Part shown: one piece after another, positions 54,417 to 59,838 of the stretch
How positions within the stretch are numbered: the first letter of the stretch is position 1
How the letters are laid out: each line of letters starts with the position of its first letter
NCBI RefSeq assembly: GCF_900638555.1
Contig: NZ_LR134525.1
Location: 744,001 to 808,000, forward strand
Reading direction: 5' to 3'
Origin: Neisseria meningitidis
GTDB lineage: Bacteria; Pseudomonadota; Gammaproteobacteria; Burkholderiales; Neisseriaceae
Length of the DNA: 64,000 nucleotides
Made by a program: the position numbers and the translations under genes
Notes under the pieces: generated by a model
Told to the model about the DNA's origin: nothing
The model's database searches: none
Seen by the model: only the letters and a program-made list of their open reading frames with translations

Positions 54417-55632
54417 GAGACCTTTGCAAAATTCCCCAAAATCCCCTAAATTCCCACCAAGACATTTAGGAGATTTTCCATGAGCACCTTCTTTCAACAA
54501 ACCGCGCAAGCCATGATTGCTAAACACATCGACCGTTTCCCTCTATTGAAGTTGGATCAAGTGATTGATTGGCAGCCGATCGAACAATACCTGAATCGTC
54601 AAAAAACCCGTTACCTTCGAGACCACCGCGGCCGTCCTGCCTATCCCCTGCTGTCCATGTTCAAAGCCATCCTGCCCGGACAATGGCACAGCCTCTCCGA
54701 TCCCGAACTCGAACACAGCCTCATTACCCGCATCGATTTCAACCTGTTTTGCCGTTTTGACGAACTAAGCATCCCCGATTACAGCACCTTATGCCGTTAC
54801 CGCAACTGGCTGGCGCAAGACGACACCCTGTCCGAATTGCTGGAACTGATTAACCGCCAACTGACCGAAAAAGGCCTAAAAATAGAGAAAGCATCCGCCG
54901 TCGTTGACGCCACCATTATTCAAACCGCCGGCAGCAAACAGCGCCAGGCCATAGAAGTCGATGAAGAAGGACAAGTCAGCGGCCAAACCACACCGAGTAA
55001 GGACAAAGATGCCCGTTGGATAAAGAAAAACGGCCTCTACAAACTCGGTTACAAACAACATACCCGTACCGATGCGGAAGGCTATATCGAGAAACTGCAC
55101 ATTACCCCCGCCAATGCCCATGAGTGCAAACACCTGCCGCCGTTGTTGGAAGGGGTACCTAGAGGTACGACCGTCTATGCCGACAAAGGCTACGACAGTG
55201 CAGAAAACCGGCAACATCTGGAAGAACATCAGTTGCAGGACGGCATTATGCGCAAAGCCTGCCGCAACCGTCCGCTGACGGAAGCGCAAACCAAACGCAA
55301 CCGGTATTTATCGAAGACCCGTTATGTGGTCGAACAAAGCTTCGGTACGCTGCACCGCAAATTCCGCTATGCGCGGGCAGCCTATTTCGGACTGATTAAA
55401 GTGAGTGCGCAAAGCCATCTGAAGGCGATGTGTTTGAACCTGTTGAAAGCCGCCAACAGGCTAAGTGCGCCCGCTGCCGCCTAAAAGGTGCCCCGGATGC
55501 CTGATTATCGGGTATCCGGGGAGGATTAAGGGGGTATTTGGGTAAAATTAGGAGGTATTTGGGGCGAAAACAGCCGAAAACCTGTGTTTGGGTTTCGGCT
55601 GTCGGGAGGGAAAGGAATTTTGCAAAGGTCTC
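54417..55632 (+). mobile_element. IS5-family insertion sequence (IS1106-like)
   Basis: 1216 bp bounded by perfect 19-bp inverted repeats GAGACCTTTGCAAAATTCC (54417-54435) and its complement (55614-55632). ATGCC stands directly outside both ends (54412-54416 and 55633-55637) and may be the target duplication. The 3' non-coding part contains a stem at about 55491-55521 (CCCCGGAT / ATCCGGGG). Confidence 0.88.
54480..55484 (+). CDS. IS5-family transposase (IS1106-like)
   Basis: 334 residues, intact. DDE motifs of the IS5 group: SAVVDATIIQTAG (first D), TTVYADKGYDSAENR (second D), and the RYVVEQSFGTLHRKFRYARA block with the catalytic Glu, including the Y-(2)-R-(3)-E-(6)-K type signature region. 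The N-terminal part (PAYPLLSMFKAILPGQWHSL) is the usual DUF772-like region. Probably functional. Confidence 0.92.
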   Translation: MSTFFQQTAQAMIAKHIDRFPLLKLDQVIDWQPIEQYLNRQKTRYLRDHRGRPAYPLLSMFKAILPGQWHSLSDPELEHSLITRIDFNLFCRFDELSIPDYSTLCRYRNWLAQDDTLSELLELINRQLTEKGLKIEKASAVVDATIIQTAGSKQRQAIEVDEEGQVSGQTTPSKDKDARWIKKNGLYKLGYKQHTRTDAEGYIEKLHITPANAHECKHLPPLLEGVPRGTTVYADKGYDSAENRQHLEEHQLQDGIMRKACRNRPLTEAQTKRNRYLSKTRYVVEQSFGTLHRKFRYARAAYFGLIKVSAQSHLKAMCLNLLKAANRLSAPAAA

Positions 55633-55856: not shown

Positions 55857-57194
55857 TTATTTTTCCGCTTCTTCAAAGCCGACGACTTCCAAACCGAAGC
55901 CGGTCAGGCCGGTGAAAGATGAGGGCTGCCCGAGGACGCGCAGTTTTTTGACGTTGAGGCCGACGAGGATTTGTGCGCCGATGCCGTAGCTTTTGCTGTC
56001 CCATTTGTAGGCTTGGTTTGCACCTTTGGGCAGGGTGCGGTCGAGCAGGGATGCGCCGTCTTCGGCGCGGTGTAAGAGGATGACGACGCCGCTTTCGGCT
56101 TGTTGGATGCGCTCAAGGGCTTTGGGCAGCGACCATGAATGGCGCGGATTGGCTTGGATGAAGTCCATCACGCTGAAGGGTTCGTGGACGCGGACGAGGG
56201 TTTCGGTGTCGGCGGCGGGCGTGCCTTTGACGAGGGCGAGGTGGGTTTCGCCGGAGAGTTTGTCGACGTAAACGTGTTGTTGGAACTCGCCCCACGGGGT
56301 TTGTACAGGCGCATTGCCCATGTCTTCAAGCAGGCTTTCGGTACGGCTGCGGTATTCGATGAGGTCGGCAATCGTGCCGATTTTGAGCTTGTGTTCTTCG
56401 GCGAATTTCATCAGTTCGGGCATACGCGCCATCGTGCCGTCGTCGTTGATGATTTCACAGATGACGGCGGCAGGAATCAGCCCGTTCATTTGCGCCAAGT
56501 CGACGCCGGCTTCGGTGTGTCCGGCGCGGACGAGTACGCCGCCTTTTTGGGCGCGAAGCGGGAAGATATGACCGGGTTGGACGATGTCTGCGGGTTTGGC
56601 GGTCGGGGAAACGGCGGTTTGAATAGTCAGGGCGCGGTCGGCGGCGGAAATGCCGGTGGTAATGCCGTGTGCGGCTTCGATGGAGACGGTAAAGTTGGTG
56701 CCGTATTGTGCGCCGTTTTTTTGGGTCATCATCGGCAGCCCGAGTTTTTCGACCATTTCACCGTCCATCGGCAGGCAGACCAGGCCGCGCGCGTTTTTAA
56801 TCATAAAGTTGATGGCTTCGGGCGTGACGAATTGCGCCGCCATCAGCAGGTCGCCTTCGTTTTCGCGGTCTTCGGCATCGGTGATGATGACCATTTTGCC
56901 GGCTTTGATGTCGGCCAGGATTTCGGGAATGGGGGAGATGTGGGACATAGTGCGCCTTTCTTGATGGTCGGTTTGTGCGGCGGGGTTTGCCCGATCCAGC
57001 CACATAGCGGGCATTTTTGCAGCCTGTTCGATTTTACGGGCTTTTTTCTCGCCGAAGGATTTGTTTTTCAAAAGGGCGGAGAGTTCGCCTGTGTTGAGGG
57101 CAACGGCTTCGGCAAAACGGGTTTGCAAACCGCCGTAGTATTTTTCTATCCACTGCCGCAGGTTGCGGCGGCGCAGGTCGGCTGTGTCGGTCAT
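55857..57194 (-). CDS. ribB: HTH-RibB-cyclohydrolase-like fusion (RibBX with N-terminal repressor-type domain)
   Basis: 445 residues. Domain 1 (about 1-70) is a Cro/C1-type helix-turn-helix like phage repressors: RQWIEKYYGGLQTRFAEA then GEKKARKIEQAAKMPAMWLD. Domain 2 (83-285) is DHBP synthase RibB with EDRENEGD and RAGHTEAGVDL, making dihydroxybutanone phosphate from ribulose 5-phosphate. Domain 3 resembles GTP cyclohydrolase II but lacks the three zinc cysteines (it reads VHEPFSVMDF where RibA has VHSECLTGD) and the RQEGRG loop, so it should be inactive; ribA nearby supplies that activity. Two starts have ribosome sites: ATG 57194 (AAAGGA) gives the fusion, ATG 56948 (AAAGG) RibBX alone. The promoter region carries a 17-bp inverted repeat. 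Autoregulation is an inference. Confidence 0.85.
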   Translation of the reverse strand: MTDTADLRRRNLRQWIEKYYGGLQTRFAEAVALNTGELSALLKNKSFGEKKARKIEQAAKMPAMWLDRANPAAQTDHQERRTMSHISPIPEILADIKAGKMVIITDAEDRENEGDLLMAAQFVTPEAINFMIKNARGLVCLPMDGEMVEKLGLPMMTQKNGAQYGTNFTVSIEAAHGITTGISAADRALTIQTAVSPTAKPADIVQPGHIFPLRAQKGGVLVRAGHTEAGVDLAQMNGLIPAAVICEIINDDGTMARMPELMKFAEEHKLKIGTIADLIEYRSRTESLLEDMGNAPVQTPWGEFQQHVYVDKLSGETHLALVKGTPAADTETLVRVHEPFSVMDFIQANPRHSWSLPKALERIQQAESGVVILLHRAEDGASLLDRTLPKGANQAYKWDSKSYGIGAQILVGLNVKKLRVLGQPSSFTGLTGFGLEVVGFEEAEK

Positions 57195-57227
57195 CGTTTC
57201 ATCCTTTGTAGAAATCGGATGTAGCGG

Positions 57228-57256
57228 ATTGTAAGCGCGTATTTACCAAAAAGCAA
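57228..57256 (-). promoter_or_regulatory. Promoter of the HTH-RibBX gene
   Basis: On the minus strand TTGCTT (57256-57251) and TACAAT (57233-57228) are 17 bp apart, predicting a start site close to 57221 and a short leader of about 27 nt. The -35 hexamer lies inside the gene-proximal arm of the 17-bp inverted repeat, an arrangement typical of a repressor site. Confidence 0.65.
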
Positions 57257-57299
57257 ATCTGTTTTTTTCGCCAAACCGAATTATTTGCTTTTTGGTAAA
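57242..57299. promoter_or_regulatory. Perfect 17-bp inverted repeat, candidate operator pair
   Basis: Arms 57242-57258 (TTTACCAAAAAGCAAAT) and 57283-57299 (its exact complement), 24 bp apart and 41 bp centre to centre, about four helical turns. Each arm is itself weakly palindromic. It contains no uptake sequence and no T run to act as a terminator. Likely ligand: the HTH domain encoded just downstream. Confidence 0.6.
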
Positions 57300-57409: not shown

Positions 57410-58419
57410 TTATTCCGAAAAAAATTTCTGATAAACGGCCTTGATTGCCGGGTACAGCATAGGCGGTACGAGCAGGCGCAATATCGGCAATCCTATGATG
57501 AATGCGGTCTTCCCGATAAAAACCGGACGGATTGCCTTCGCGCCGAATATCTTTCTGCATTTTTCTTTAAATGAAAAATATTTCCGGTAGATGAGGATAA
57601 TGTTTTTGGAAAAATAAAGCCTTACCAATATAGACCTCAGATAGCCGATATTGTCGAAGACAAATTTTTGCAAACCGCCGTAGATGGGGGAATTTTTGTT
57701 TTCGACTAAAAAATCCACACCCCGGTCGAGATGCGTCAGCACATCGCTGAAATTTTTGTATTTGATGTTGTGGCTGATAGAGCCGCCGAGAACGCGGTAC
57801 TGGTAAAAAGGGTTATCGTAAAAGGCAAAAGTCTTGATAAAACGCGCCAATTGCAAACTGTACGGGAAATCCTCGTGAATGTATCCTTTTGGGAAAAACA
57901 GATTGTTTTTGATGATTATTTCCCGCCTGACGATTTTTGTCCACGCGTTGGCGATATAGTACCGCCCCTCCACCAACGTTTCAAAATGGCGGACAAAATC
58001 ATTATCCGAAAAGTCCGCCCTTTTGGGGATGTCGCGGTAATTGAAGGACGAGGGATGCAGGATCAAATCAACCTTTTTGTCTGCAAGTTGTTGTAAATCA
58101 AAGAGAATCCCCCCGCGTTTTTTGAACGGTTGGTATCGGCCCAATAGTCGTCGCTGTCCAAAAAGATTAGGTAATCGCCTTTTGCCGCCCGGATACCGGC
58201 GTTGCGGGCATCCGACAGCCCGCCGTTTTCTTGATGAATCACTTTTATATGCGGATATTTGCCTGCATATTCGTCGCAAATCTTCCCGCAGCCGTCCGGC
58301 GAACCGTCATCGACCAAAATCATTTCATAATCGGCAAAATTTTCGGCAAGCACGGAATCCACGCAGCAGCGGAGGTATTTTTCCACATTGTAAATAGGGA
58401 CGATGATGGAGAAAATCAT
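57410..58419 (-). pseudogene. Family 2 glycosyltransferase, frame OFF
   Basis: The N-terminal frame (from ATG 58419) has the GT-A nucleotide-sugar fold: FSIIVPIYNVEKYLRCCVDS, ILVDDGSPDG, HQENGGLSDARNAG and the DxD motif FLDSDDYW. It then runs into an early stop at 58063. The rest, about 215 residues from QQLADKKVDLILHPSS to KAVYQKFFSE, is in another frame. One extra base near 58109-58123 would join them as NR(S/F)KKRGGILFDLQQL; the region holds six G and six A in a row on the coding strand. Family members in Neisseria add sugars to LOS or other surface glycans; target unknown. It may be an off phase or a dead gene. ATG at 58419 preferred over TTG 58428. Confidence 0.75.
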
Positions 58420-58574
58420 AAATATCAATCCATTATATTAAGATGTTTGCGCGTATGCCTCAAACCCGCGCTCGCAATGCGTTTGCATCCACTATAAAAC
58501 TTATTGCTTTATCAAGGTATGGAAACCTGTTTCCCGAAAGGCGGCGCAGGATGCCCGTTCCCTGCAACTTTGCC

Positions 58575-59168
58575 TTATTCCGACATCAGATGTCCCAGCT
58601 TGTCTGCTTTGGTTTGGAGGTAGCGTTTGTTTTCAAGGTTTTCCCCGACGTGCAGGGGGATGCGTTCGACCACGTTAATCCCGGCATCTTTCAGGGTTTG
58701 GATTTTTTCGGGGTTGTTGGTCAGCAGTTTGACCGAGCGGATGCCCAGATATTCGTAGATAGATTGCGCCAAACGGAAATCGCGGGCATCGACGGGCAGC
58801 CCGAGTGCCAAATTGGCTTCAACCGTATCCATACCTTGGTCTTGCAGATGATAGGCGCGGATTTTGTTAATCAGCCCGATGCCGCGTCCTTCCTGACGCA
58901 GATAGACGATGATGCCGCGCCCCTCTGTCTGTACCGCCCTCATGGCCGCTTCAAGTTGAGGTCCGCAGTCGCATTTTCTCGAGAACAGCGCATCGCCCGT
59001 CAGGCATTCGGAGTGGATGCGCGTCAGAACCGGATTGCCGTCTGAAAAATTACCGACGGTCAGCGCGACGTGTTCCTGCCCGTTTGCCTCTTCAAAGCCG
59101 TGCATCGTAAATACGCCCCATTCGGTCGGCAGGCGGCAGGATGCCACATGGTTCAACATTTCAGACAT
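58575..59168 (-). CDS. ribA: GTP cyclohydrolase II
   Basis: 197 residues. Opens GTP to the first pyrimidine precursor of riboflavin. Zinc ligands Cys in SECLTGD, and Cys-x-Cys in [10 protein letters not shown] are present, as is [11 protein letters not shown]. This intact enzyme explains how the cyclohydrolase-like domain of the RibB fusion could be lost. The start ATG 59168 overlaps the end of the GAF-like gene by 8 nt. Confidence 0.95.
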
Positions 59169-59838
59169 CTTCACTCCCATCTTTTCCGGCAGACATACCC
59201 AACAGCAGTTTCAAAGGTTCGGACAAAGCCAAGGCAAGAGCCACCCATTCCACCTGTGCTGCCGTACCCGCACACTCTGCGCATTCAAATTCCACATGAA
59301 CCACGCCCAACACACCGCCACTTTCCGTGCAGACCGGAATGGAAATTTGCGCCGCCGAAGCATGATTGCGTTCTCCCGAAAGCTCCCCCAAATCCAACCA
59401 ACGGCGTACATCCGAGGCAACATTCATCCAACCGCTTTGCGCCGAACGGCAAGCCAGCGAAACCTTGCCTGCCGCTTCATCCAAATCCCACAGGTTTTCC
59501 AAAACCTCGCCCTGTCGGGACAGGCATATCAGTTGGAAAGCCTGGTTTTCAGATGGCATCAAGGCATAAACCGCCGCACTCCGCACGTCTGTCGAGCGTG
59601 AAAACACCGAATCCAAAGCCATGAAAAGCCGTTTCAGACCTTCCTCATTCCCGCTGTTTTGCTCCAAATAATCGGCAAGCCTCCAATCCTCATGCTCAAG
59701 CCACAAAACCGAACGCTCAATCGAAGCCATCCCCATATCCATCACCGTCTTTGCGGTCAGATACGCCGTCCGTACCTCGTCTGGCGGCAACTTTAAACCT
59801 TGGGTCAGCAGAAAATCTTTAATCAAAGCAGCAGGCAT
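59161..59838 (-). CDS. GAF-domain-like protein upstream of ribA
   Basis: 225 residues from ATG 59838 (a TTG two codons earlier is possible). The C-terminal half (about 90-205) has the alternating strand pattern of a GAF domain ([41 protein letters not shown]). The N-terminal part is helical, with [21 protein letters not shown]. The cysteine pair CAEC near the end could bind metal. It overlaps ribA by 8 nt, so a flavin- or GTP-related sensing role is plausible but unproven. Confidence 0.65.

Follow-up and report, generated by a model that had tools for sequence, protein, structure and literature searches.

Introduction

Metabolic enzymes that regulate genes of their own pathway, such as PutA and BirA, are known as autoregulatory trigger enzymes. 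Among riboflavin enzymes, the archaeal RbkR is a riboflavin kinase joined to a helix-turn-helix (HTH) DNA-binding domain. Here we describe a gene of Neisseria meningitidis in which an HTH of phage-repressor type precedes the riboflavin enzyme RibBX. The gene lies in a stretch of 64,000 nucleotides, called the window throughout (assembly GCF_900638555.1, contig NZ_LR134525.1, positions 744,001 to 808,000). The parallel with RbkR had been drawn in an original prediction made from the window alone, and it holds insofar as both proteins combine a riboflavin enzyme with a DNA-binding domain. The class of HTH, the enzyme and the domain of life, however, all differ, and the only enzyme domains found in the fusion are those of 3,4-dihydroxy-2-butanone 4-phosphate (DHBP) synthase and GTP cyclohydrolase II, not a riboflavin kinase.

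RibBX is known from Shewanella and Aeromonas, and the X domain of the Shewanella protein is reported to regulate RibB activity by a mechanism that is not known (PMC10012899). Usual RibBX proteins share with the fusion both enzyme domains, the missing RibA cysteines and the presence of a separate ribA (nearest solved sequence, PDB 6mnz), but they have no DNA-binding domain. The N-terminal part of the fusion instead resembles the repressors (Rep; PDB 5d50; phrog_5736, phrog_12107) of phages SPC32H, epsilon15 and phiV10, both in HTH sequence and fold and in the ATTACC/GGTAAT half-site operators around the repressor gene. In SPC32H and epsilon15 the half-sites are separated by five bases, whereas four separate them in the sites of the fusion; moreover, the phage repressors have a C-terminal part of their own and stand among phage genes, while the fusion ends in a riboflavin enzyme. 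What sets the fusion apart from PutA and BirA is that its DNA-binding part and operators appear to trace to phage.

Results

The fusion gene is a single frame of 445 amino acids that starts at the ATG at 57194, behind a ribosome-binding site (Table 1), and it joins an HTH to RibB as predicted. The N-terminus is matched by the repressor families phrog_5736 (E 8.5e-7) and phrog_12107 (E 8.2e-6), and none of the Pfam HTH models calls it. The RibB domain is intact and predicted to have DHBP synthase activity. In RibX, an alignment with the genome's own RibA shows that the motifs CLTG and CDCG, whose cysteines are the zinc ligands of RibA, are replaced; the separate ribA (58575-59180; PF00925, E 2.2e-67) keeps both. 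Because RibX lacks cysteines that the genome's own RibA keeps, the enzyme part is by its sequence of the RibBX type. The cyclohydrolase domain that had been called dead has indeed lost these residues, and it belongs to this known type. A full-length structure model, built with 48 near relatives, reached a predicted local distance difference test score of 54 and was set aside.

By sequence likeness, the HTH is related to phage repressors such as those of SPC32H and epsilon15. It matches TL-2011b (39.7%, E 8e-7) and PDB 5d50 (E 1.8e-4), and its modelled fold is lambda-repressor-like. A scan of viral contigs for copies of the HTH gave 70 loci. A RibB motif is present in just one of them, L180 (IMGVR_UViG_2879694896_000001), a Neisseria ribBX locus that stands in the viral collection; this locus was dropped. 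Two chromosome-sized N. gonorrhoeae records of about 2.17 Mb (NZ_CP119140.1 and NZ_CP119142.1) are similarly filed in the plasmid collection. Upstream of the HTH, 54 of the 69 remaining loci have two sites 36-44 bp apart, with up to two mismatches allowed in each, as do 35 of 47 non-redundant loci, at a spacing of 39-41 bp; the mean count in shuffled sequences was 0.4, and among other windows taken from the viral loci it was 4 of 548.

The perfect 17-bp inverted repeat that had been reported upstream of the gene (57242-57258 / 57283-57299) is exact, and its arm has only these two exact copies in the 2.19-Mb genome. Each arm is itself an imperfect 16-bp dyad, TTTRC-N6-GYAAA, and the dyad centres are 42 bp apart. 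Judged by its sequence and its phage counterparts, the repeat is therefore a pair of dyad operators of phage type and not one long palindrome. A matrix was built from the 70 sites of the 35 non-redundant viral loci, all of which lie next to the HTH in phage copies. It gives the two arms the highest and second-highest scores of any position in the window, the third reaching 7.9 bits. The pair has no mismatch to the dyad, a result that was not reached once when the 200 bp before the start codon were dinucleotide-shuffled 200 times. As also predicted, the near arm covers the -35 box of a promoter-like sequence with a 17-bp spacer; this hexamer, TTGCTT, is weak, being a poor match to TTGACA.

Five epsilon15-like phages had been meant to serve as a negative control, but cousin sites were present in four of them. 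Sites of the form ATTACC-N5-GGTAAT occur around the repressor gene of epsilon15, phiV10, SPC32H and BUCT554, and none was found around that of Pseudomonas phage AV001. In the epsilon15 record they are annotated as repressor sites, which is a statement of the annotation. Three stand-alone copies of the HTH were found on chromosomes: those of Rhodanobacter fulvus and Caballeronia grimmiae have the site pair and that of Ignatzschineria ureiclastica does not. Since its HTH is identical to that of a viral locus (L147), the Caballeronia copy is not an independent case.

We next turn to the family. A ribBX match was present in 78 of 83 Neisseriaceae genomes, and one locus was taken from each. We refer to the HTH of the window, which also occurs in Eikenella and genus g5, as HTH-A and to a different one in genus g8 as HTH-B. 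HTH-A is in frame in 37 loci (that of the window included), a separate frame in two and of the other type in four, while 35 have none. Within Neisseria, 34 of the 44 genomes with ribBX have the HTH in frame, two have it split and eight lack it. Sites of at least 13 bits lie upstream of 34 of the 37 in-frame and both split loci, but of none of the four with the other HTH and none of the 35 without one; a strong site thus accompanies HTH-A in 36 of 39 loci and is absent from all 39 loci without it. With a threshold of 7 bits, a pair of sites is found at 28 of the 37 in-frame loci and at both split ones. Co-conservation of repeat and HTH, which the original prediction had called for, therefore holds in these loci, including N. 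gonorrhoeae (L013, L095), where both sites are present.

The spacing of the sites, start to start, varies from 35 to 42 bp across genomes, and a helical phasing fixed at 41-42 bp was rejected. In related genomes the distal site is often ATTACC/T-N4-A/GGTAAT. Four loci (L036, L039, L041 and L043) keep the HTH and a perfect distal dyad (e.g. TTTACTTTAAAGTAAA), with about half of the near site left.

The HTH is under purifying selection, as had been anticipated. In pairs limited to a RibB synonymous rate (dS) of 0.05-0.8, the HTH has a median ratio of non-synonymous to synonymous rates (dN/dS) of 0.21, against 1.04 in the linker, 0.13 in RibX and 0.08 in RibB, and 16 of the residues 34-56 are identical in all 37 in-frame loci. 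An internal ATG (56948) at the end of the linker aligns with the position where RibB begins in unfused relatives and is present in all 41 fused loci. A strong internal ribosome site at this start was considered and rejected, its strength being only marginally above that of other in-frame ATGs (p 0.036). In two species the linker is frameshifted (L032, genome G014; L045, genome G042, N. weixii) with HTH, RibB and internal start all intact, and both appear to depend on the internal start. As this ATG is universal among the fused loci and these species seem to rely on it, a shorter product lacking the HTH may also be made. The separated HTH and RibB frames of N. weixii overlap as ATGA.

On the RibBX tree HTH-A requires nine changes, at least six of them on starred branches, which we read as a single gain with repeated loss; transfer between species may also have contributed. 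The HTH alignment has too few columns to resolve a tree, in which Ignatzschineria falls inside HTH-A, and HTH-A may have a single origin. A search for a relic HTH in the 1.5 kb preceding each of the 35 unfused loci gave a single match, with E 5.5. Elsewhere in the order, inspection by eye of 20 long-frame loci, from at least 384 genomes with a match, revealed no HTH-RibB fusion.

In genus g8, four of seven genomes (L072, L074, L075 and L077) carry HTH-B, likewise phage-repressor-like, on ribBX. Over 83% of its length HTH-B is 73% identical to the HTH of the S24-type repressor P0153 of a Neisseriaceae metagenome-assembled genome, of which an identical copy occurs in G061, one of the four HTH-B genomes, in an assembly rated 7% contaminated. 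Two palindromes, TTTGTTATATAACAAA and ATTGTTATAATACAAA, precede the g8 fusions. Three of the four loci have them at a distance of 41-42 bp, and L077 has a degraded distal palindrome 32 bp away. The region upstream of the P0153 gene has no TTTGT-N6-ACAAA dyad. A transfer of operators together with HTH-B is for this reason not supported. No relatives of HTH-B were found in the viral contigs. The ribosome site of the g8 fusions is strong at the internal RibB start and weak at the long start.

No RNA element was called at the window locus, where three matches all stayed below the Rfam gathering score. In 46 Neisseria genomes no flavin mononucleotide (FMN) riboswitch was found, under stricter filters and with at most 33 first-look candidates scored per genome. 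FMN riboswitches above the Rfam cut-off occur in five of the 83 family genomes (L089-L092 of genus g4 and L088 of g6), none of which has an HTH on ribBX. This distribution fits a replacement of control only weakly, because the genomes are few and related.

The neighbours of the fusion are a family 2 glycosyltransferase gene, ribA and a DDE transposase gene, with no phage genes around it: the HTH is a captured domain and the locus is not a prophage. The glycosyltransferase gene (57410-58428, minus strand) is broken across two frames close to a G run, its front part matching PF00535 and its rear part no family; genes split near such runs are often phase-variable. The transposase gene (54480-55484, plus strand; PF01609) is convergent to ribBX. 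The inverted pair at the upstream end of the locus (Table 1) presumably consists of DNA-uptake sequences and is likely the terminator of the upstream gene.

Table 1. Features of the ribBX locus, in window positions
Feature	Position	Strand	Basis or remark
HTH-RibB-RibX fusion gene (ribBX with N-terminal phage-repressor-type DNA-binding domain)	55857..57194	-	Open reading frame list, Pfam, NCBIfam
HTH domain, about residues 1-67	56994..57194	-	Helices modelled at 4-20, 24-30, 35-43, 49-58
Linker, variable, residues 68-83; last codon is internal ATG 56948	56946..56993	-	dN/dS; alignment with unfused relatives
RibB domain, residues 91-281	56352..56924	-	PF00926, E 3.7e-86
RibX, GTP cyclohydrolase II-like, RibA cysteines missing, residues 294-439	55878..56315	-	PF00925; alignment with the genome's own RibA
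Ribosome-binding site of the long start (ATG 57194), AAAGGA	57202..57207	-	Sequence; duplex energy -5.4
Putative proximal operator TTTGCTTTTTGGTAAA, read on minus strand	57242..57257	.	Over -35 hexamer; 14.4 bits, top matrix score in 64 kb
Putative distal operator TTTACCAAAAAGCAAA, read on minus strand	57284..57299	.	14.2 bits, second matrix score in 64 kb
Promoter-like: TTGCTT (57256-57251), 17-bp spacer, TACAAT (57233-57228)	57228..57256	-	Predicted from sequence
Inverted pair holding GCCGTCTGAA	57303..57340	.	Inverted repeat in sequence

Discussion

An HTH of phage-repressor type on the enzyme and matching sites across its promoter make it probable that the enzyme regulates the gene that encodes it. 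We consider it likely that ribBX captured the DNA-binding domain of a prophage repressor together with its operators and turned into an autorepressor whose enzyme domain holds the dimer together. Most Neisseria and Eikenella would descend from the ancestor in which this capture placed domain and operator pair ahead of ribBX. The fusion would then dimerise through RibB, standing in for the C-terminal oligomerisation domain of the phage repressor, and bind the two operators. Since the -35 box lies within the near one, we propose that transcription of ribBX is repressed by its own product, whose amount is thereby kept steady. The original prediction of a riboflavin enzyme that regulates its own gene thus gains phage-type operators and their co-occurrence with the HTH, while binding and repression are what we infer from them. 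In this genome no second protein matches the HTH at E 0.001, and of 16 strict dyads, the two at ribBX are the only ones as close as 45 bp to each other, which suits a one-gene circuit. The best of the other 14 score 12.1 and 10.1 with the phage-derived matrix. A looser scan yielded more places than those listed, so a wider regulon may exist beyond the own promoter. Against autorepression weigh the three of 39 HTH-bearing loci that have no strong site.

A relic HTH, no longer able to bind DNA and kept for structure or stability beside leftover operators, is very unlikely. The patchy presence of the HTH, the linker frameshifts in two species and the decay of the near site in several loci would suit such a relic, yet the residues conserved throughout the in-frame loci, next to a linker drifting at a dN/dS of about 1, and the confinement of strong sites to loci with HTH-A speak against it. 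That another regulator, such as the repressor of a resident prophage, uses the sites while the HTH on RibB is incidental seems highly improbable: the sites are indeed of phage type, but the fusion alone matches in its own genome, seven Neisseriaceae repressor loci of HTH-B type score at most 7.8 bits with the matrix, and no strong sites were seen where the HTH is absent. Somewhat less remote, though still quite unlikely, is activation of the own promoter. Lambda CI activates from a site next to the -35 box, and the near site abuts the promoter here as well. It covers the -35 hexamer itself, however, which favours exclusion of RNA polymerase, even if the poor match of this hexamer to TTGACA means that an activator may be needed.

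Autorepression could also be gated by a ligand, with operator binding dependent on flavin, GTP or substrate in RibX or RibB, so that the gene would respond to flavin status much as with an FMN riboswitch. Purifying selection on RibX despite its missing RibA cysteines, the regulatory role of the Shewanella X domain as reported in PMC10012899, and the lack of FMN riboswitches among the HTH-bearing genomes searched are in line with this. We nevertheless lean against gating, as a role for a ligand is speculative; moreover, 35 of 78 loci have RibX without an HTH, so that RibX did not arise for HTH regulation, and unfused Neisseria gave no riboswitch either. More broadly, ribBX may have taken the DNA-binding domain of a phage repressor at least twice, as HTH-A and HTH-B, each with operators of its own, in replacement of FMN-riboswitch control, the enzyme dimer serving in place of the oligomerisation domain and occupancy of the active site or RibX site setting repression. 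Towards this wider proposal we are tentative and slightly more doubtful than convinced.

An HTH on RibB in Neisseria had been thought undescribed, and we found no description in the open-licence literature, most subscription journals lying outside that search; PMC12542839, as far as consulted, mentions neither Neisseria nor RibBX. The fusion also marks an annotation gap: its HTH escapes the Pfam HTH models, and the named records among the 120 relatives listed mention the enzyme alone. With an operator region of 58 bp and a domain of 80 residues, the proposed circuit is directly testable. It would show a phage lysogeny switch, domain and operators alike, recruited to a housekeeping vitamin gene with both partners still recognisable, and it offers a candidate answer to how riboflavin synthesis may be controlled in Neisseria, where no FMN riboswitch was found.
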